This document shows, piece by piece, positions 11,789 through 62,440 of a stretch of DNA of 64,000 nt. How positions within the stretch are numbered: the first letter of the stretch is position 1; each line of letters opens with the position of its first letter. The translations under genes and the position numbers were made by a program. The notes beneath the pieces were generated by a model. It was given only the letters and a program-made list of their open reading frames with translations. It had not been told where the DNA came from and ran no database searches. Source of the DNA: Siphonodentalium dalli (Eukaryota; Mollusca; Scaphopoda; Gadilida; Siphonodentaliidae); the NCBI GenBank assembly GCA_032622095.1, contig CP136061.1:3038001-3102000 (forward strand), in the 5' to 3' direction.

Positions 11789-12630
11789 TAGTGCAGCGGC
11801 CAAATCGAAAAAGAGCTCTAGTTTTCGAGATACCCCTACCCAAGGTAGAACAAGTTAAAACTAACTTTATTTAAAGGAGAAATATATACTCTTTACGAAA
11901 ATGATAGTGAAAAGTAACGCAATTGGTGGTAGCTATTCTCAAATTGACGGTGAACGATACCCACCAGTGACTTTTCCCAGAAATTAATGATTTTGGTAAA
12001 GTGAGCTTTGCGGCTATGTCCTAAGTTATTTTCCCACATTGTTGGTATTAAAATGACTACATCATACCATATTTGTACCTGATATGCAAGAAGTGTTGGT
12101 TAATTTGGATTTTTGTGCCATTTTGAGCCGAAACATTTATTTTTTATTGAAAAATCACTCTTTTTAAAAATAATTATATTTTTCGAACATTATCATTCAA
12201 ATGGATATTGCAATAATATTGAAATATTTAGGTCATATGGTGTAGTAGTTATCTAACAAGCATATAAAAGAAGAAGTTAACAAGAATTTTGAACGGTTTG
12301 CGAGATATTGGATTTTAGCTACCCCTCCCCCAAACACGTGGTTGGTCGAAAAAATACATATTTTTGATAACGACATTACAAACATTTTTGAATTGATCTG
12401 AATGGAACCCAATATGAATCTTGTACTGAAAGTGTTGTCCAGAGATGCCGTTTAATCGATTACAGATGTGTTCAGGCTTTCAGACCACCAGTTACAACAA
12501 CAACAATTATTTTATTGATAACAGTTAATTTTGCATGCATTAACATCGATGTTAAGTACTAAAACCTTTGTTATAAACAACGTGACCAACTATATAACAT
12601 ATGGCTCAGTAGTTATCTGAACAACACAAG
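11789..12630. repeat. Left long terminal inverted repeat
   Basis: Pairs with 16690-17552. Shared landmarks in order are GGTAGAACAAGTTAAAACTA, ACTTTTCCCAGAAATTAA, TTCAAATGGATATTGC, CACATCTGTAATCGATTAAA (in one arm orientation), TAACATCGATGTTAA and GGCTCAGTAGTTATCTG. Identity is roughly 85-90% by eye, so the element is not very recent. Confidence 0.75.
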
Positions 12631-16689: not shown

Positions 16690-17552
16690 ACAATTTCTGT
16701 CAAATTCTTTCTATTTGTGATGTCCAGATAACTACTGAGCCATATGAATTATATAGTTGGTCACGTATTGTTTATAACAATGGTTTTAGTACTTAACATC
16801 GATGTTAATGCATGCAAAATTAACTGTTATCAATAAAATAATTGTTGTTGTTGTAACTAATGGTCTGAAAGCCTGAACACATCTGTAATCGATTAAACGG
16901 AATCTCTGGACAACACTTTCAGTACAAGATTCATATTGGGTCCCATTCAGATCGATTCGAAAATGTTTGTAATGTCATTATCAAAAATATGTACTTTTTT
17001 CGACCAAAAACGTGTTTGGGGGAGGGGTAGCTAAAATCCAATATCTCGCAAAAAGTTCAAAATAGTTGTTAACCTCTTTCTTCATATGCTTGACAGATAA
17101 CTAGTACACCATATGGACTAAATATTTCAATATTATTGCAATATCCGTTTGAATGATAATGTTCGAAAAATAAAACAAATTTGAAAATGAGCAATTTTTC
17201 AACAAAAAATAAATGTTTCGGCTCCAAATGGCACGAAAATCAAAATTAACCAACACTTCTTGCATATCAGGTACATATATGGTATGCTATAGTCATTTTA
17301 TCGCCTACAATGTGGGCTAATAACTTAGGACATAGCCGCAGGGCTCACTTTACCAAAATCGTTAATTTCTGGGAAAAGTCACTGGTGGGTATCGTTCATC
17401 GTCGATTTCAGAATAGCCACCACCAATTCCGTTATTTTTCACTATCATTTTCGTCTACAGTATATATTTCTCCTTAAAATAAAGTTAGTTTTAACTTGTT
17501 CTACCGTGGGTAGGGGTACCCGACCACTTTTTGGCGTTTGGCCGCTGTACTA
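16690..17552. repeat. Right long terminal inverted repeat
   Basis: Reverse complement of the left arm. It ends GCCGCTGTACTA at 17552 and is followed by the CAA target copy. A (GTT)n run at about 16462-16491 lies just inside the arm. Confidence 0.75.
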
Positions 17553-20189: not shown

Positions 20190-21722
20190 AATGAGTCCAG
20201 TTGATCAGCCTAGCTGGAATTTCCTTCACATTTGTGCACCAATTGCTATCCGATGTTTATTGTAATGTGAGATATAATGATGCTACATCAAGATTAATCA
20301 AAATAGATCAAGGAACAAGGCAGGGGGGAATCTGCTCACCTAACTTTTACATGGTCTACATTGACGAACTGATAAAATTACTATCAGAGTCAATATATGG
20401 CTTTCACGTGGAATCAATTAATTGCACTTGTCCAACCCACGCAGATGACATGCTACTTCTATCGCTAACTGAATGTGGTTTGAATTCACTTATTGATATG
20501 TGTGTGAGGTATAGCTATACATGGCGGTATAAGTATAATTCGTCTAAATCTGTAGCAATGGTGCTTAATGAGCCAAGGAAGCAAGCCAATAAGTATAAAC
20601 GCAAGTGGATCATGGGGTCTGAACACCTTAATGAAGTGGACAGTACAGTTCATCTGGGAATCCCAATTGATAAGTATTATTGAACATGTATGTGATAAAC
20701 TGAGAAGCACTTTTCTTATGCTATCGAATTCTGGTGTGTATGCCGGAGGTCTAACTCCCCTGAGTTCCTCACTCATTTATAAATCAGTTGTCTTGCCAAG
20801 AGCACTGTTCGGTACGGAACTTTTATGGAATCTATCCCAAAATGAAATTATGAAACTAGAGAGGACTCATAGATTTTGCATCAAAAGGATACAGGGATTT
20901 GAACCCAGGACCCGAACCGACATTGCTCTTGGCTTACTTGGAATTCATTCACTAGAATTCTACATACATAAAAAGAAATTGTCACTATTATCATCATTGT
21001 GTAATGTCGAATGTAACAATCACAAAACTGTTAAACAAGTTTTCCTCCATAGAATGTATGAATACATGCTTTTGCCTACCACTAGTTCATCGCGTTTCCA
21101 TAACAATTTTTGTGACATAGTGCAAATACTTGAACGATATGATTGTTCGTACTACTTTAACCAATTTGCCACAGAGTCTTGTTTTCCGGACAAACAATCA
21201 TGGAAACAAATTTTTAACATGGGAATGGTAACATCACACGATGATGCGTGGAAGTCAAGAACACATTCTGACCCAAGTCTCTCACTCTTCAATAGAATAC
21301 ACACAGACTTATGTATATCTTATGTTTGGTGCCTATGTAAATCGCATCCAGAAGACAAGACCATTTATCTAACGATTGGCAAATTGATAAGCCAAATAGG
21401 AATTAACAGAGAAATATCCTGTACGAATTGTGGTTCTACCACGACCGATATTTTATCTCACATATTCATTGAGTGCACACCCATGTATTCATTTAGAAAT
21501 GAGATGGAATATTTTATTATGGATGCACTTGGGATTAACGCCTACATCAAATACGATACGTTATCAAGAGAAGCCAAATTAAGTGTGCTCCTTGGGAACT
21601 TATCAGAAATTGAGGGCGATCAATTGATTACAGATGATGACATTCCAATTCAAATTTTCAAACATGTTGTCAAAATGTGGCAGGCTTATTATCTGTATGC
21701 TGGTATGACCGGTATTACTTAA
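20190..21722 (+). mobile_element. LINE family B copy 3, RT to C-terminus
   Basis: This 5'-truncated family B element carries two long frames. The first (20201-20683, beginning at a TTG, so not a true start) has QGTRQGGICSPNFYMVYIDEL, split here as motif B and following, THADDMLLLSL (catalytic ADD box), and STVHLGIPIDKYY. The second (20568-21722, used from about 20690) has RALFGTELLW, EPRTRTDIALGLLGIH, and the zinc-binding end CTNCGSTTTDILSHIFIEC. Apparently a single frame change near 20680 separates them, making this the best-preserved family B coding piece in the window. The C-terminus at 21722 is followed by AT-rich sequence with no clear tail. Confidence 0.88.
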
Positions 21723-43382: not shown

Positions 43383-44465
43383 GCTGCTTTCAGTCTTAGG
43401 CAGACATGACCCTAGTACCATCAATAGGCAGACATATACAAAACACTTTAAAACCGCTCAATTTTAAACACTCTTTCTCTAGTTTTGTTCTAAATGTGAC
43501 CACCAAGCTATGAGCAATGGGAATTTGTGATTCCTCAAGTAATATGAAATATACTAATTCTCAGGTCTGCCTAATTTTTTCGCTATATGTTGTGAACATT
43601 CGGAAGACATCATATGTATTTGTATATAGTAGCAGTATTTGGTAGACCCGATATATTTTATGCATAAATCCAGTTTTAGTCGGACATATAAACATTTACA
43701 CCGTACGACCTCGCCATGGTCCCTACGACCAACATACGTAGGGACGTTGATACAGGGGGTGTGGCGGGTACACAAACCCCGCAATTTTTGCCAAAATTTT
43801 CAACTTTTGGAAATTTGGAGGTAAAAATTTGGACTCCTAGTTGAAAAGTTTAGGAATTTCGGGAATATACAGTTAGAAAATTAGGCCCAAGGGGGGGGGG
43901 GGGGTGCAAATGGAACTACACAATTTCCGAAATTTGGAAATTTAGATTAGGAAATTCACTCTCCACACGACAAATATATTGCATGATTTATTCTCACAAA
44001 AATCTAAAAGAGTAAGGAGTCACAATATACCGAATAATACAATTAGAAATAGACATATCCTTGACCTGACAATTTCCCACTTTCGACATCGTCCTGCCCG
44101 GTGATGATTCCGTTATCAACTAACTGCATAATATGTAGTGGTGCATGCATTGTATATCGGGGTTGAAGTAAGTGAGGGGTACGTGGGGGGAATTAATTTT
44201 ATTAAAAGTTGGCATAGAACTAAAATTATTGAATAATGGTGAAACGCAAATATATGGTAATACGCAGATAAAGTTTTTGTACGGTCGAATAGCCAGAAAT
44301 TCAGAATGCATTGTTTTGCCTATTCGTATACGGTCGTTTAAGTGGACAGCTTAAACTTAATTGGCGCGGCTAGAGGTCCGTATATTGGCACGTTTGTCCT
44401 ATAACTGTCACCCGACAAACAAAAATCTTAGCTTCGCGTTCGTTTCGTGCGATACTTCAGCTTCA
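43380..44465. other. Rearranged remnants, no gene
   Basis: 43626-43690 matches 26020-26085 directly, and 44400-44466 matches 25948-26018 inverted. A G-run lies at about 43893-43906. TACGTAGGGACGTTG and CCCTACGACC words near 43720-43745 form a small inverted pair. Nothing coding is supported. Confidence 0.45.
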
Positions 44466-46103
44466 AATATGTTTCTTAGACTTACACCAAGACCCAGTTT
44501 CTATTGGAAGATAAATATTAGTGCACCTAAATTTTGACAGTAATCTAAGATTTCTATAATTTAGCACTGAAAGATATTTTTCAATTCCGAAATCGTGCTT
44601 AATGATTCCATATGTTCTACACTTTTCCATGGTTGATATTTCATTTCGCCATTCGCTTAAAAATTTACTCTCAATGTTCTTTCGAATAGTGACCTTAGCA
44701 CACTGCATTCTAGATGCATCTATCAGCTGGTTATACCATATGTGTGATACATCGGCTTCGCGACACAAGTCCCTAATATATTTGATCCAAGGATGGATGT
44801 CTAATCCGTGTGAGTACTCCAATAACATATACTCATATAAAATTTTATTTATTTTGTGTATGTCCGATGTAATTAGGTTGGTCCAGTAATTTAGCATTCT
44901 GCTATTTATGTCGACACTCAGTGGATATACGCCTGTTTCCCCATACACCATGACAGTTGGAGTACTCGGCTTTAGCCAAAGGACATACTTGAGGAATTTC
45001 AATTGTACTTTCTCTATTGTTTTAATATATTGTGTTTGATATCCCCAAACTTCGCAACCATATAGTAAAATGGGCTTTACAGTTCTAGAAAATAATTCGA
45101 TCTGTATATCGACTGATATGTCAAATTGTCTTGATTTGTGTAAGAGACCGAACATTGATCGATTATTATTCGATATCAAACCACTTTTCGCTTTGCGGTA
45201 GGAACCATTTCTTGTAAATTCTATACCTAGATATTTAAATTGTGATACGACTTGTAAAGGTTCGTTGTTAATTAATATTCGTAGTCTTGGTGATTTGTCA
45301 CATCCAAATATCATCATTTTGGTTTTTGTCACGTTTACATTTAGTTTCCAAAATGAGCAATATTCTGAAAATTGTTTCATTGCAATCCGCATATCTTTCG
45401 TCGATTCTGCGAAAACTACTGTATCATCAGCATATAGTAAAACCATTATTTTTAAATATATTCCAATCTGATCGAAAATATCATTTTCTATCAGTTTGAG
45501 AGTTTGGACTGCATTCGCGGTGAGGAAATTATCGAGGTCATTCAGGTATAGGGAAAACAGAAAATATGATATATTCTCACCTTGTAAAACACCAGAGAAA
45601 TTCATATATGCTCCAGATACGTTGTTTCCATACTCTGGATTTCACTTGGTTATACATATTCCTTAAAAATCTAAACCATTGTCCATTTATACCAGCCGTA
45701 ATTAGTTTTTGTCAAAGTCCGTCATGCCAAACTGTATCAAAAGCTTGTTTTAAATCGATGAATGCGCAAAATAATTTCCGATTTGCCCTGCGATAGATGT
45801 TTTTTAGAAAATCCAAGCATAAGATATGATCAATGGTAGAGAAATTCTTCCTGAATCCAGATTGGTTTACAGTAATAAAATTCGTCAATTCTGCGAAATC
45901 AGTCAGTCGTGCATTTATAATGCGCGTGAACAACTTGCCAAGACAGCTAAGTATATAGTTATAGGTCTATTGTTTTCAGACAATGTGTGGTCACCTTTAT
46001 TCTTATACACTGGAACTACTAATCCGGTTAACCAACATTCCAGAAAGCATGCTGAATTAAAAATCAAGTTAAACCAATGAGTATATATTGGTAACATATA
46101 ATC

Positions 46104-56544: not shown

Positions 56545-56550
56545 ACTAAA
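56545..56550. other. Target duplication, left copy (ACTAAA)
   Basis: Six bases directly outside the left end of the Polinton-like element, identical to 62435-62440 and to the single empty site 30044-30049. Six-bp duplications are a Polinton hallmark. Confidence 0.92.
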
Positions 56551-59171
56551 AGTAGTATATACTGAGCTGTCTCAGCCCCAATCGAGGTGCAACCGCGCAA
56601 CCAATGTTTACATAACACGTTGCTATGTTGTGTTGTTAAGGGGATATTTAAATTTAAAGGTAGACAATGGGTTTAAAGGGACAACAATTGAATTTAAATG
56701 GATGCTATTGATGAAGGTTTTAAAGGGAAAGATAGAAGAATGAATCGGGTCATTGAATTTAATGAGTGTGTTGAATGGGTTGTAATTGATAGAGTATACA
56801 AGAATGAACCGGGTCATTGAAACTGTTTCGAATGAGATCGAGTCAGTGGTTTATCTAGCGGTAGGTTTAGATATATAAGAATTTGCTTTGTGCGGCTGAA
56901 TTAGATTGGATCTTGCATGGGATAAGAAATTGATGTAATTGATAGAGTATACAATACGGGCATAATTGGAATGATATGTGGAAGCAACCGATCAGTAAGT
57001 ATTAGTCAAATGAACGAGTTTTATATATGTGACTATTTGGCAAGATCAGTCTTCATCAGATGACAGTGGGTACAAAGCGGACGATGGCGAATGAATACAG
57101 CGAAAAGAAAAAACTCGGGATTCTTTTGAACCCCCAACTATCAATTAATATGAGGTATATTCCATAATCCCTCTGTTGATTTAGTTGGTTAGGACTCCAA
57201 GCAGATATTTCGTCCCAGATCGAGCAAGTCGTGGGTTCAAACAGAGTGATAGTAGTCGACAAGTTTGAACATAACCTCTGGGCGCCGCATATATCACGTG
57301 GTTTCCGCCACCAAGGTAGAGTTTATCCATATAGCAGAAGGTGATCGTATATGATCGAAAACGGGTATAAATATTATATAGTATAGGTTACATATTCGGG
57401 TAGATGGTTTGACTGCCTAAGCCCTAGACTCCTCAACCTCAGCCACCAGGGGTGAGAGGTCACGTCGCGGTGTGTTATCACTAATGGAATAGGATATCGG
57501 GGTGATAAACGATCGCGTTAACCCTATTGCGTATCGCCTACAATATGAAAGAAAATAGGGGGCGTGTACTTGGGTGGAGGTTATGCGGATATCGCAGATA
57601 AGAAGATACCGTTGATATATATTGGTACTATAAAAGGAATATATAACGCTGTTATATTACGAACACCAATATTGTATGGAACAATGAAGACAAATAAACA
57701 GTATAGTGTATCAACATTTGCTTTATTCGACACCAAGAATAATAGGTTTATTGCAGTTAATCATCGATTGTCATCGTCGTCATCTTGCTCAGAGTCTTGA
57801 GAGGAGTCCATCTGATTATCGTTTTTGTCCTCACTTTTATTTCTCATGTACTCCATCAGGAGGGGTTTATATGTCCTCAAAGAAATCCGAACGGCAGGGA
57901 GTATATCATAGCTATCATCTAGCATCTTATACACACGATCCATGATCTTGTTATGAGTTTTCCCACCACTAACTTCAAGTAAATTTCGTATAAATGCAGC
58001 GTATATGTTTAAGAAACGCCTTTCATACTCGGGACGTATCTTCACTTTCGATTTTTCTTCAGCCTCGTCTTCCGTCAATCCTTTCTTCATATAACGTTCA
58101 ACTAATTCATCTAATTCTGCTTTATTGTCATCTTGGGCCTGTAACCACACCTCTTCGAAATAATCGTTTTCTTTTTCAGTCGGAAGTTTTAATATTAGTC
58201 TGTCCTGGTCCGGAATTAATTCTATTTTATTCGTGTCAGTTTTCTGTTTTTTATTATTCACCTGTACATTTTCAATTGATTCTCTTTTCTTCCTATCAGA
58301 ACACCAATTTTTAATGTGCCTTTGTACATCATGCTGGGTCTCAAATACGACACCACAATCGTCACAGCTTGGCATGATGTCGCCTTCGCTTTCAGAGTCG
58401 TATTCCTGCTGTGACAATAGCCCAGGGTATGTAGTTTCACTGATATTATCTTTCTTTTGATGCGTTATCACATCGACGGGCTCATCAACACTACTGTTAT
58501 TTGACAATATGCTTTCTTGTTTTATACTCGTCTTTGTCAGCACATTACTACGAAGTCGCAAATTTTCTGGAGTATTCGTTTTTAAGTCAACTACGAGATA
58601 ACCAAATGGTTGATTGGTAGCTTCATTGAAATGGGACATAAAGTGTTGTGTTTTCTCTGGATACATTTGACGAGCTAGAGTCATTACCTGCATTTTATCT
58701 ATAGGGTTGTTGAATAGAATCAAGTAGTGGCAATTTCTCCGTTGGGTAGGGTCCTTGTTATAGTAGAGAGATTGATTAATCGCAACCACTGATATACCCA
58801 AATGGTGACTGCCTTCCGTGAATAATTCAGTAACCTGCGAATCCTTGGATGCCGTAGACATAAGGTCATCAAGTACAATCAGACATTTTTTTCCAGAATG
58901 AATGAGGGTGTCCAAGTTAGTCGGAAGACCTTGTATAAACTGGACAGATGGCGCGACTGTGTCCTTGATTTCATCGTATAATGGCTGCCAGTACTTATAG
59001 AACCAAATTATTTTCTCGGGTGAAGGCTGTATACTCGCTGAACAATTTTGAAGTATACTTTTAAGCAAGTGTGTTTTGCCGCAAGAAGTGGGTCCCGAAA
59101 TCCACGCGGTAAATGGATGCCTGAATTTGAAGTCATCCTGTCGCGCGCCACCACTGCTTTCTCTATAAGGT

Positions 59172-59205
<34 letters not shown>

Positions 59206-59394
59206 GTTGTAGTTGTTGTTGGTGTTGTTGTCGAGAGTGTTTGAACTTTATATGCCGTTTTAAACTGTCTGGCCATACATATTCAATTGAACATGTTTCA
59301 CACTGATGCTTCATCCTTGACCGATCTGAGGGCACTGAGTCTTTTCCAGATAAAAGAGAGCCTTTTATGACAGGAAGAACAATATCTATTAATC
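56551..59394. repeat. Left arm of the palindrome
   Basis: 2844 bp, reverse complement of 59583-62434. From the outside inwards it contains the AG terminus, a low-complexity stretch with GAATGAACCGGGTCATTG-type words repeated (56743, 56804), a tRNA-like segment (57169-57250), a GGTGTGTTATCACTAATGG-type unique region, and the ATPase gene. Confidence 0.9.
57169..57250 (+). other. tRNA-like segment with A and B box words (left arm)
   Basis: TGATTTAGTTGG fits the box A consensus at 11 of 12 positions. GGTTCAAACAG, about 45 bases later, fits box B at 9 of 11, and CTCTGT/ACAGAG pair at the ends. The T stem does not pair, so it is not a proper tRNA. The mirror copy is at about 61735-61816 on the minus strand. 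It could be a pol III promoter-like relic or chance. Confidence 0.35.
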
Positions 59395-59410
59395 GAGTTT
59401 TCAGTTCCAA
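57761..59410 (-). CDS. A32/FtsK-type packaging ATPase of the Polinton-like element (left copy)
   Basis: A 549-residue open frame on the minus strand, looking whole. Parts in order: a C2H2-like finger (C37, C40, H53, H58), a glutamine-rich stretch (about 60-80), FRHPFTAWISGPTSCGKT with Walker A at 106-113, and CLIVLDDLM with Walker B at about 176-182. LFTEGSHHLGISVVAINQSL follows (motif with the polar sensor), then HYLILFNNPID-MQVMTLARQMYP. The TEGSHH, LILFNNP and LARQMYP words are typical of Polinton/adintovirus ATPases, which pump DNA into capsids. A second finger (C349, C352, H365, C370) and an acidic C-terminus end the protein. The first few residues extend past the arm into the spacer, so the true start may be a downstream ATG. 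Confidence 0.85.
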
Positions 59411-59582
59411 ATTTTGAATCTAGTGTCTTAATTTGATCTTGGACGATGCCGCCGTGTCTGAGTTATACACCACATAATTATTTGCCATACGAAATGTCTT
59501 ATGTTTTCCCGCTTAAGTAACATTGTATATACAGAATAGACATCTCAATGTCACACATAGTATTATTATTCCTCAATTAATA
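59395..59582. other. Central spacer of the palindrome
   Basis: 188 bp of non-inverted sequence between the arms, containing GCCGCCGTGTCTGAGTTATA. As the two genes diverge from it, it would hold their 5' regions. No other feature was recognised. Confidence 0.8.
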
Positions 59583-59766
59583 GATTAATAGATATTGTTC
59601 TTCCTGTCATAAAAGGCTCTCTTTTATCTGGAAAAGACTCAGTGCCCTCAGATCGGTCAAGGATGAAGCATCAGTGTGAAACATGTTCAATTGAATATGT
59701 ATGGCCAGACAGTTTAAAACGGCATATAAAGTTCAAACACTCTCGACAACAACACCAACAACAACT

Positions 59767-59814
<48 letters not shown>

Positions 59815-61224
59815 ACCTTATAGAGAAAGCAGTGGTGGCGCGCGACAGGATGACTTCAAATTCAGGCATCCATTTACCGCGTGGATTTCGGGACCCACTT
59901 CTTGCGGCAAAACACACTTGCTTAAAAGTATACTTCAAAATTGTTCAGCGAGTATACAGCCTTCACCCGAGAAAATAATTTGGTTCTATAAGTACTGGCA
60001 GCCATTATACGATGAAATCAAGGACACAGTCGCGCCATCTGTCCAGTTTATACAAGGTCTTCCGACTAACTTGGACACCCTCATTCATTCTGGAAAACAA
60101 TGTCTGATTGTACTTGATGACCTTATGTCTACGGCATCCAGGATTCGCGGGTTACTGAATTATTCACGGAAGGCAGTCACCATTTGGGTATATCAGTGGT
60201 TGCGATTAATCAATCTCTCTACTATAACAAGGACCCTACCCAACGGAGAAATTGCCACTACTTGATTCTATTCAACAACCCTATAGATAAAATGCAGGTA
60301 ATGACTCTAGCTCGTCAAATGTATCCAGAGAAAACACAACACTTTATGTCCCATTTCAATGAAGCTACCAATCAACCATTTGGTTATCTCGTAGTTGACT
60401 TAAAAACGAATACTCCAGAAAATTTGCGACTTCGTAGTAATGTGCTGACAAAGACGAGTATAAAACAAGAAAGCATATTGTCAAATAACAGTAGTGTTGA
60501 TGAGCCCGTCGATGTGATAACGCATCAAAAGAAAGATAATATCAGTGAAACTACATACCCTGGGCTATTGTCACAGCAGGAATACGACTCTGAAAGCGAA
60601 GGCGACATCATGCCAAGCTGTGACGATTGTGGTGTCGTATTTGAGACCCAGCATGATGTACAAAGGCACATTAAAAATTGGTGTTCTGATAGGAAGAAAA
60701 GAGAATCAATTGAAAATGTACAGGTGAATAATAAAAAACAGAAAACTGACACGAATAAAATAGAATTAATTCCGGACCAGGACAGACTAATATTAAAACT
60801 TCCGACTGAAAAAGAAAACGATTATTTCGAAGAGGTGTGGTTACAGGCCCAAGATGACAATAAAGCAGAATTAGATGAATTAGTTGAACGTTATATGAAG
60901 AAAGGATTGACGGAAGACGAGGCTGAAGAAAAATCGAAAGTGAAGATATGTCCCGAGTATGAAAGGCGTTTCTTAAACATATACGCTGCATTTATACGAA
61001 ATTTACTTGAAGTTAGTGGTGGGAAAACTCATAACAAGATCATGGATCGTGTGTATAAGATGCTAGATGATAGCTATGATATACTCCCTGCCGTTCGGAT
61101 TTCTTTGAGGACATATAAACCCCTCCTGATGGAGTACATGAGAAATAAAAGTGAGGACAAAAACGATAATCAGATGGACTCCTCTCAAGACTCTGAGCAA
61201 GATGACGACGATGACAATCGATGA
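59583..61224 (+). pseudogene. A32/FtsK-type packaging ATPase (right copy), broken
   Basis: Mirror copy of the gene in the left arm, read on the plus strand. The same parts occur in the same order: finger, glutamine-rich stretch (three glutamines longer), Walker A GPTSCGKT, Walker B CLIVLDDLM, TEGSHH-type region, second finger and acidic tail. It is broken, with about one break. The near-identity to the left copy shows that the arms were copied from one another or formed together recently. Confidence 0.85.
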
Positions 61225-62434
61225 TTAACTGCAATAAACCTATTATTCTTGGTGTCGAATAAAGCAAATGTTGATACACTATACTGTTTATTTGTCTTCA
61301 TTGTTCCATATAATATTGGTGTTCGTAATATAACAGCGTTATATATTCCTTTTATAGTACCAATATATATCAACGGTATCTTCTTATCTGCGATATCCGC
61401 ATAACCTCCACCCAAGTACACGCCCCCTATTTTCTTTCATATTGTAGGCGATACGCAATAGGGTTAACGCGATCGTTTATCACCCCGATATCCTATTCCA
61501 TTAGTGATAACACACCGCGACGTGACCTCTCACCCCTGGTGGCTGAGGTTGAGGAGTCTAGGGCTTAGGCAGTCAAACCATCTACCCGAATATGTAACCT
61601 ATACTATATCATATTTATACCCGTTTTCGATCATATACGATCACCTTCTGCTATATGGATAAACTCTACCTTGGTGGCGGAAACCACGTGATATATGCGG
61701 CGCCCAGAGGTTATGTTCAAACTTGTCGACTACTATCACTCTGTTTGAACCCACGACTTGCTCGATCTGGGACGAAATATCTGCTTGGAGTCCTAACCAA
61801 CTAAATCAACAGAGGGATTATGGAATACACCTCATATTAATTGATAGTTGGGGGTTCAAAAGAATCCCGAGTTTTTTCTTTTCGCTGTATTCATTCGCCA
61901 TCGTCCGCTTCGTACCCACTGTCATCTGATGAAGACTGATCTTGCCAAATAGTCACATATATAAAACTCGTTCATTTGACTAATACTTACTGATCGGTTG
62001 CTTCCACATATCATTCCAATTATGCCCGTATTGTATACTCTATCAATTACATCAATTTCTTATCCCATGCAAGATCCAATCTAATTCAGCCGCACAAAGC
62101 AAATTCTTATATATCTAAACCTACCGCTAGATAAACCACTGACTCGATCTCATTCGAAACAGTTTCAATGACCCGGTTCATTCTTGTATACTCTATCAAT
62201 TACAACCCATTCAACACACTCATTAAATTCAATGACCCGATTCATTCTTCTATGTTTCCCTTTAAAACCTTCATTAATAGCATCCATTTAAATTCAATTG
62301 TTGTCCCTTTAAACCCATTGTCTACCTTTAAATTTAAATATCCCCTTAACAACACAACATAGCAACGTGTTATGTAAACATTGGTTGCGCGGTTGCACCT
62401 CGCTTGGGGCTGAGACAGCTCAGTATATACTACT
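59583..62434. repeat. Right arm of the palindrome
   Basis: 2852 bp, the reverse complement of the left arm. It ends CAGTATATACTACT at 62434, followed by ACTAAA. The 8-bp length difference from the left arm is mostly explained by the longer CAA run in the glutamine stretch. Confidence 0.9.
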
Positions 62435-62440
62435 ACTAAA
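62435..62440. other. Target duplication, right copy (ACTAAA)
   Basis: Identical to 56545-56550, followed by CATTTAG, which continues the paralogous context of 30050. Confidence 0.92.

Follow-up and report, generated by a model that had tools for sequence, protein, structure and literature searches.

The palindromic element at positions 56551–62434 of the window, by which we mean the whole 64,000-nucleotide stretch of Siphonodentalium dalli contig CP136061.1 that was analysed, belongs to a family in the same genome whose palindromes carry Polinton-type ends and target-site duplications, group by insertion site in an arm tree, and have their ends in common with full-length Polintons. We consider it probable that these elements are multi-copy, non-autonomous and self-complementary satellites, copied and integrated by the polymerase and integrase of Polintons by way of a hairpin in which the arms are rewritten. 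Helper use, the hairpin and packaging are what we infer here, and for dependence on a helper it is only the shared ends that speak.

The window element is a head-to-head palindrome, in which a left arm of 2,844 bp (56551–59394, + strand) and a right arm of 2,852 bp (59583–62434, − strand) enclose a 188-bp centre (59395–59582). Alignment of the arms gave 2,833 identical columns out of 2,853 (99.3%), in line with an earlier note on this DNA that had described arms more than 99% identical around such a centre; they differ by 10 substitutions and by two gaps, of 1 nt and 9 nt, the longer one falling in the polyQ tract of the gene. Comparison with other copies revealed that the centre is a continuation of the left unit, present on one side only, and that its sequence also occurs in copies such as L016, L019 and L035. 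Both termini read 5′-AGTAGTATATAC, the element ends being AG…CT, and the copies of the duplication ACTAAA at 56545–56550 and 62435–62440 were read directly; the ends with their terminal inverted repeat (TIR) and the duplication, which the note had taken for Polinton marks, are supported as such, as is its reading of the element as integrated self-complementary DNA. A scan of the 2.23-Gb genome for the terminus pattern gave 40 occurrences, 22 of them forward and 18 reverse, and 0 for the reversed control. The terminal stretch at 56551–56869 (+) and its mirror at 62116–62434 (−) are common with the TIR of the 14-kb Polintons L020–L025 (93–94%). Further inside, positions 57379–57476 (+) retain what is left of an element terminus of the lineage-B type, 79.6% identical to positions 1986–2082 of L048 (score 94, against a best of 30 among 100 shuffles), whose mirror image is placed by the arm alignment at 61509–61606 (−); this buried terminus is absent from L018. 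Besides the gene copies, the open-reading-frame list of the element contains frames of at most 106 aa and no protein-primed polymerase B or rve integrase gene; the element was filed as a non-autonomous relative rather than a complete Polinton. Inspection of its open reading frames gave no candidate for a capsid protein.

The gene copy of the left arm is open (57761–59410, − strand; 549 aa when read from TTG and 517 aa when counted from the first ATG), so that one copy is whole, as the note had supposed, and encodes in order a C2H2-type finger, polyQ, an A32/IVa2-type packaging ATPase, a second C2H2-type finger and a helical C-terminal domain. In the right arm, a 1-nt deletion at 60140 has divided the gene copy into a 5′ part that ends after the frameshift (59642–60265, +) and a 3′ part in another frame (60184–61224, +). 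Pfam Adeno_IVa2 and Pox_A32 both scored above cut-off. Since a direct PDB sequence search gave no ATPase relative, a structure model was used, which among PDB entries matched the packaging ATPase B204 of STIV best (E 1.7e-7); the lower-ranking matches include Rho, RAD51-like and HerA folds, so the fold alone is insufficient proof of packaging. A PHROGs search returned nothing useful. From the B204/A32-like model, the gene is predicted to be a packaging ATPase with a zinc finger on either side, which is the type of gene that the note had named. Gene predictions from Mya and Mytilus contain the same protein fused to a Polinton-type integrase or protease, and it therefore seems to reside inside Polintons there. 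Between two palindromic lineages with different ends, A and B, dN/dS was 0.29–0.40 in all 27 pairs and 0.13–0.16 for the ATPase core in 3 of 3 pairs, indicating purifying selection on the gene between the lineages. Because values within lineage A were noisy (0.28–2.8, one pair undefined) and those within lineage B were 0.52–0.65, this statement concerns the between-lineage comparison and is not extended to the present day.

The note had proposed looking for palindromic copies with other duplications and for a longer relative with the same ends, and both were found. Perfect 6-bp target-site duplications flank 16 of the 17 tabulated related elements, representing 14 independent sites, and a palindrome of a second family brings the separate insertion sites to 15. 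Ends starting with AG were found in 33 of 34 tabulated cases, the exception being the right end of L045 (AT). The sole tabulated element without its own duplication, L009, sits at the centre of a larger palindrome flanked by GTGAAT; we considered it as an assembly fold-back on account of its mirrored flanks and rejected this, since what surrounds it proved to be another palindromic element, bounded by a duplication of its own. In shape, the family extends from near-perfect palindromes to strongly lopsided elements, and matching 6-bp duplications also flank the lopsided L049 (2,943 bp) and L050 (2,874 bp). Pairing is lacking over most of L009 and L050, part of the interior of L049 is deleted, and L028 and L035 consist of one unit with no second arm within the stretch examined. 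It should be kept in mind that the short copies were initially chosen as closely spaced pairs of ends, a selection that favours palindromes. L047 ran beyond the examined stretch and received no duplication call, and L028, L031, L034, L035 and L036 contain family pieces and were left out of the table. L032 and L033 contain Polinton ends. Translated searches of viral contigs and genome contigs gave no confirmed relative.

Most copies can be read as an end-unit U running forward to a point p1 and then backward from a point p2, where U comprises the terminus, a stretch of about 1.2 kb in which no gene is clear, the outward-pointing packaging-ATPase gene and a short 5′ region. The unpaired part between p2 and p1 can be as short as about 10 nt and can exceed 2 kb. 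The window element and related copies have the same end twice around a single fold, a feature of snapback genomes. Unpaired centres are 25–32 nt long in L010–L015, about 10 nt in L018 (by eye), 188 nt in the window element, 375 nt in L019 and about 1,040 nt in L016/L017. Instead of the one reduced Polinton genome of the earlier note, we are dealing with a multi-copy family with several junction types.

In a tree built from the first 2 kb of the arms, both arms pair together at all 8 palindromic sites other than L016/L017, with L010/L011 counted as one site and with L049, L050 and lineage B outside the tree; L009 was excluded from this count, its arms being only 1,167 bp and its distance of 24% meaningless. 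Over this length, the distance is 0–0.4% within a copy versus 0.55–7.5% to the nearest other site, and in L010, L014 and L018 the arms differ by 0.00% while other sites are at least 0.55% away. At L016/L017, the left arms cluster with each other and the right arms likewise, 1.3% apart. Drifted arms are seen in L016/L017 (98.2–98.3% identical) and in L045, L046 and L048 of lineage B (96.1–97.4%). The arms of L018 are 99.95% identical, and both bear the same gene-breaking frameshift. Judging from the clustering of both arms of each palindromic site, the arms look equal at the time of insertion, and gene conversion after insertion could be another source of this equality.

Full-length Polintons of 14 and 18.7 kb, rich in genes, reside in the same genome and share with the palindromes the terminal ~320–490 bp plus scattered short pieces; L013 and L018 additionally match them over a stretch of ~400 bp at about 71%. 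Polinton L020 has a TIR of 406 bp, to which the left end of L014 aligns without a mismatch and with a single gap of 3 nt, and both L014 ends are identical to that TIR over the 340 bp compared. The 14-kb Polintons, which have these ends in common with the palindromes, encode a polymerase, an integrase and their own ATPase, the latter only ~32% identical to the palindrome gene. Part of the subterminal sequence of the palindromes resembles the NADAR side of the Polinton. Five palindromes were compared with four Polintons, taken half by half, and for most of the arm this led us to reject the palindrome as a duplicated end of a 14-kb Polinton. On these alignments, the gene does not appear to derive from a resident Polinton, nor does the greater part of the arm, and a simple snap-back is not supported. 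Of the note's reading as a snap-back defective genome, the self-complementarity stands, and the ends are shared with resident Polintons; a simple origin from the Polintons examined is opposed by the divergent gene and by arms that match them only in pieces. The purifying selection between the two palindromic lineages favours a satellite that propagates over a defective genome that is dead. With the fused Mya protein P0070 as query, the integrase part of which starts at residue 537, at least 59 matches were obtained, scored from 14,045 candidates. Among the matches listed, 58 of 59 stop at or before residue 543, and one (G000:C3:263162826-263164241) reaches residue 590, the best integrase match in the 1,001 bases at and beyond its end having E 1.6. 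When the integrase part alone was used and the best 150 of 1,730 candidates were scored, the closest ATPase–integrase pair among the matches listed (85 ATPase versus 150 integrase places) lay 62 kb apart. A Polinton bearing the ATPase of the palindromes was not found among the matches listed.

In the mechanism that we propose, a Polinton recognising the same ends would provide the protein-primed DNA polymerase and the integrase. Strand-displacement replication of the satellite would yield single strands able to fold into a hairpin, and copying or mismatch repair of this hairpin would equalise the arms ahead of integration, for which the adenovirus-type panhandles that equalise short terminal repeats offer an analogy. 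Strand switching at varying places may give rise to the different centres, and satellite ends may be swapped with those of co-replicating Polintons. As the least certain step, the zinc-finger ATPase might help to load the satellite's own DNA into helper capsids. The further proposal of a genuine satellite virus of animal Polintons, self-complementary, having no gene but its own zinc-finger packaging ATPase, with two head-to-head copies of it directing helper capsids to satellite DNA, arms rewritten through the hairpin in every cycle and helpers changed by the trading of ends, is advanced tentatively, as somewhat more apt to be wrong than right.

The arm equality could also be explained by an old palindrome that moves as ordinary DNA and whose arms are kept alike by chromosomal gene conversion, as are those of Y-chromosome palindromes. 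Long inverted repeats can convert in place and the arms are alike in the copies compared; however, the drifted arms of L016/L017 and of L045, L046 and L048 mean that conversion at times lags behind, L010, L014 and L018 combine a complete absence of arm difference over 2 kb with distances of at least 0.55% to other sites, and L014 bears the same Polinton-identical end on both arms, so that we regard this explanation as unlikely. A one-off integrated snap-back deletion product of a resident 14-kb Polinton would account for the self-complementary form, the shared ends and the subterminal likeness to the NADAR side, and the available text of PMC8235507 describes AAV snapback genomes, both symmetric and asymmetric. 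Yet a gene about 32% identical to the Polinton ATPase, arms that beyond the ends match in pieces only, 15 separate insertion sites, several junctions and the diverged lineage B contradict it for the Polintons examined, and we give it little credence.

That there is no long gene besides that of the ATPase, that it has been conserved from one lineage to the other and that the zinc fingers could bind the ends would suit a self-sufficient minimal element in which this protein itself drives replication or integration. We think this very improbable: the family matches and best structure matches are packaging ATPases, the Mya/Mytilus protein occurs in fusion with an integrase or protease of Polinton type, and L018, with its gene broken in both arms, was nevertheless inserted recently. 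As for an assembly or read artefact, fold-back reads are known in long-read data according to the available text of PMC12870357, but a simple fold-back would mirror the flanks, and the 200-bp flanks of the window element gave no mirror match (best local score 11, without a shuffle baseline), which counts against it. The edges at AG/CT with a 6-bp direct duplication, the differences between the arms and the direct duplications of 16 of the 17 tabulated elements, mirrored flanks occurring only at L009 inside the GTGAAT-bounded palindrome, likewise make such an artefact scarcely credible.

Replication by protein priming is generally attributed to Polintons, which may also form virions, direct evidence being scarce. 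If the arms of the satellites are reset to identity at each insertion, the family would be a genomic record of hairpin replication with a built-in insertion clock, like that of LTRs; a packaging gene under purifying selection without any other long gene would be indirect evidence of real Polinton packaging. The family looks like a parasite of larger Polintons and, if the satellite reading is true, would provide an animal case of a DNA virus-like element with a satellite that is itself DNA.

Like Polintons/Mavericks, the palindrome has AG…CT ends, a 6-bp duplication, a packaging ATPase of the A32/IVa2 kind and ends in common with the 14-kb and 18.7-kb residents. Unlike them, it is mostly inverted repeat, we found in it no gene for a polymerase, integrase, protease or capsid protein, and its C2H2-finger-bearing ATPase differs from that of the resident Polintons. 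In the available text of the literature searched, Repbase apart, we found neither a palindromic nor a non-autonomous Polinton described. In foldback transposons such as Tetris, which belong to a different superfamily, a small centre is flanked by very long inverted repeats; from the features generally attributed to FB/Tetris, the palindrome is set apart by its 6-bp duplication, Polinton-type ends and gene. The defective or symmetric genomes of adenovirus and the palindromic or hairpin derivatives of yeast pGKL are deletion products of protein-primed linear replicons, and we know of none that form heritable transposon families. AAV snapback genomes are self-complementary, symmetric or asymmetric, made from one parent end and in one form furnished with head-to-head promoters, as far as described in the available text of PMC8235507; in contrast to these products of a parvovirus, which has another replication mode and in which they were described from virus preparations, the palindromes form families of many integrated copies, flanked by target duplications and endowed with a gene that is subject to selection. 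As satellites of giant viruses, virophages and Polinton-like viruses, as portrayed in the available parts of the sources, resemble the family in being small DNA elements thought to exploit the machinery of a larger virus, whereas here a Polinton is itself the proposed helper and the satellite is cut down to one gene per arm.

The window element is a 5,884-bp palindrome (56551-62434), in which a left arm (56551-59394) and a right arm (59583-62434), identical at 2,833 of 2,853 aligned columns, surround a 188-bp centre. ACTAAA flanks it on either side, and no mirror match was found in the 200 bp of flank beyond each end. Each arm carries one long gene that starts near the centre and is directed outward; in the left copy the frame is open over 549 codons counted from TTG, or 517 if counted from its first ATG, and a 1-nt deletion breaks the right copy in two. 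The gene matched Adeno_IVa2 and Pox_A32 over the Pfam cut-off, with C2H2-type fingers, under their cut-offs, flanking the ATPase on both sides. The predicted structure of its product (mean pLDDT 71.8, pTM 0.43; ATPase core mostly 80-93) best matched the genome-packaging ATPase B204 (E 1.7e-7); it also matched A32-like packaging ATPases of giant viruses and, at lower rank, Rho, RAD51-like and HerA folds. The earlier note, which had described a near-perfect palindrome with a 6-bp duplication and a gene of packaging-ATPase type with one copy that looks whole, was right in this observation. The window also contains an inverted repeat pair (11831-12580 and 16768-17518, ~750 bp, 90-96%, ~4.2 kb apart) and retroelement reverse-transcriptase fragments (RVT_1; 20201-20683 and 44463-45605).

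When the first 300 bp of the element were searched in its own genome (2.23 Gb), at least 48 matches were obtained (40 best scored of 143 candidates), many of which form facing pairs with a spacing of 4-6 kb, and others with one of ~14 or 18.7 kb; a terminus pattern gave 40 matches versus 0 for the control. Sequence was retrieved for 11 short pairs, for the halves of one 18.7-kb and three 14-kb elements, and for one other place. Of the 11 short pairs, 10 were palindromes for most or the whole of their length and had direct 6-bp duplications; since they were chosen by spacing, the sample favours palindromes. L010 and L011 were counted as one site, and L016 and L017 likewise, because their duplications and neighbouring bases are in common. 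A gene search returned at least 82 rows (79 best scored of 5,127 candidates), including 13 head-to-head pairs by our own count. It led to four more places, L045-L048 (lineage B, 85-90% protein identity), one of which had a partner among the matches listed. Long inverted arms were present in all four, and the ends, readable in three, differ from the window element's (AGTAGTATAGTC...).

Matching 6-bp duplications were found in 16 of 17 tabulated elements, representing 14 independent sites. A 15th is a 10,688-bp outer palindrome (L029:1957 to L030:3032, on G000:C4) with AGAAGAATAGG ends, a GTGAAT duplication, arms 99.5% identical and an ATPase gene ~36% identical to that of the window element. 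The short copy L009, which has no duplication of its own, forms its centre, as if the inverted repeats of L009 had served as the fold. The palindromic copies with different duplications that the earlier note had proposed to look for thus exist. Among non-palindromic members, L028 and L035 hold a single unit (terminus, ~1.2 kb with no clear gene, outward ATPase gene and short 5′ region) within the stretch fetched. L028 (G000:C9:60794226-60797296), with one unit between two family termini in like orientation ~3 kb apart, is a broken or compound copy, and L031 (G000:C5:107716873-107722827), with three family termini inside 6 kb and units meeting at a further fold, is a rearranged or compound copy.

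A longer relative with common ends, which the earlier note had also proposed to look for, proved to be a 14-kb Polinton, examined in detail through L020 and L021, which were kept apart. It encodes a polymerase (itself without a Pfam match, its relatives bearing PF03175), an integrase with a chromodomain, an adenovirus-type protease match under cut-off, its own 219-aa ATPase, a PC4-like protein and, adjoining one end, a NADAR-domain protein (L021:6278-6856, E 5.8e-38). PF08719 also occurs on several of the polymerase relatives. No capsid protein was found in L020/L021, and a sister-element candidate (L023:2-991) had no convincing Pfam match; the polymerase region of L024 consists of several broken frames. 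In the four Polintons the terminal inverted repeats (TIRs) measure 406-410 bp; these elements match the window palindrome over the terminal ~320 bp at 93-94%, plus short internal pieces. Aligned over 403 bp, the left end of the palindrome L014 and the L020 TIR show one 3-nt gap and 0 mismatches. Across the 340 bp compared, both L014 ends equal this TIR; the nine other tabulated palindrome-family ends differ from it by 5.9-10.4%. Furthermore, a lineage-B terminus lies buried in the window arm at 57379-57476 (79.6% to L048, score 94, with 100 shuffles reaching no more than 30; the match to L046 is weaker, 58 versus 33); none was found in L018. In the simplest history, a B-type element would have acquired its outer ~0.83 kb from an A-type Polinton; ends therefore look exchangeable.

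No Polinton carrying the window-type ATPase was found in this genome among the matches listed: none of 85 gene places lay less than 62 kb from any of 150 integrase places, and the one gene row reaching the integrase part of its query had no adjoining integrase match. The Polinton-type integrase, its open frame often 384 codons, has very many near-identical copies, many of them of equal score (best 150 of 1,730 candidates scored), which suggests a recent burst. Protein relatives of the window gene numbered 271 among 716 candidates, and the animals named among the 120 listed are bivalves (Pecten, Mizuhopecten, Pinctada, Mytilus, Solemya, Mercenaria, Mya and Ruditapes), which points to a mollusc host. 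In predicted proteins of Mya and Mytilus, the ATPase is fused either with a Polinton-type integrase (P0039, P0070, P0071, P0080) or, in P0082, with a protease; we therefore infer that the gene there is part of Polintons. Members of these Polinton gene families are also filed under bacterial MAGs of Sedimenticola and Candidatus Thiodiazotropha (P0087, P0130, P0135, P0186), which therefore probably contain host contigs.

Between lineages A and B, which differ in ends, dN/dS for the gene was 0.29-0.40 (27/27 pairs), and its ATPase core gave 0.13-0.16 (3/3 pairs), thus arguing that the gene has been kept for its protein during the time separating them; part of this selection could have acted in a Polinton carrying the gene. 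Values were 0.52-0.65 within lineage B and 0.28-2.8 within lineage A, where counts are small and one pair is undefined.

When a tree was built from the first 2 kb of each arm, the two arms clustered by site at each of the 8 palindromic sites outside L016/L017, with L010/L011 taken as one; there were within-copy distances of 0-0.4% and the nearest other site at 0.55-7.5%. L016 and L017 formed one clade with left and right arms 1.3% apart, as expected of an older insertion duplicated later, and lineage-B arm identity falls to 96.1-97.4% in L045, L046 and L048; so copies seem to begin with equal arms and then drift. An identical frameshift occurs on both arms of L018. Panhandle intermediates are established in protein-primed replication, and the arms may have been made equal before insertion by rewriting via a hairpin.

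Lineage-A copies have a common unit and a variable fold point. The unpaired centre is 25-32 nt in L010-L015, ~10 nt in L018 (by eye), 188 in the window element, 375 in L019 and ~1,040 in L016/L017, where a small perfect palindrome sits at the fold point. More lopsided copies have arms of 1,167 bp (L009), 1,047 bp (L049, also with an internal deletion) and 251 bp (L050), and the unit in L019, L031 and L035 extends beyond the window element's turn-back point. Such varied centres may reflect repeated fold-backs, or many later changes to the centre of one ancient palindrome.

Taken together, the window element is best read as one member of a non-autonomous, self-complementary satellite family of Polintons, whose packaging ATPase is conserved and which would use a helper, replicate through hairpins and be packaged. 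No earlier description of such satellites was found in the literature searched. The idea of a snap-back defective genome came close, although a whole family is present where it described one element. Symmetric and asymmetric snapback genomes are described for AAV (PMC8235507), and the variable-centre lineage-A copies resemble them.
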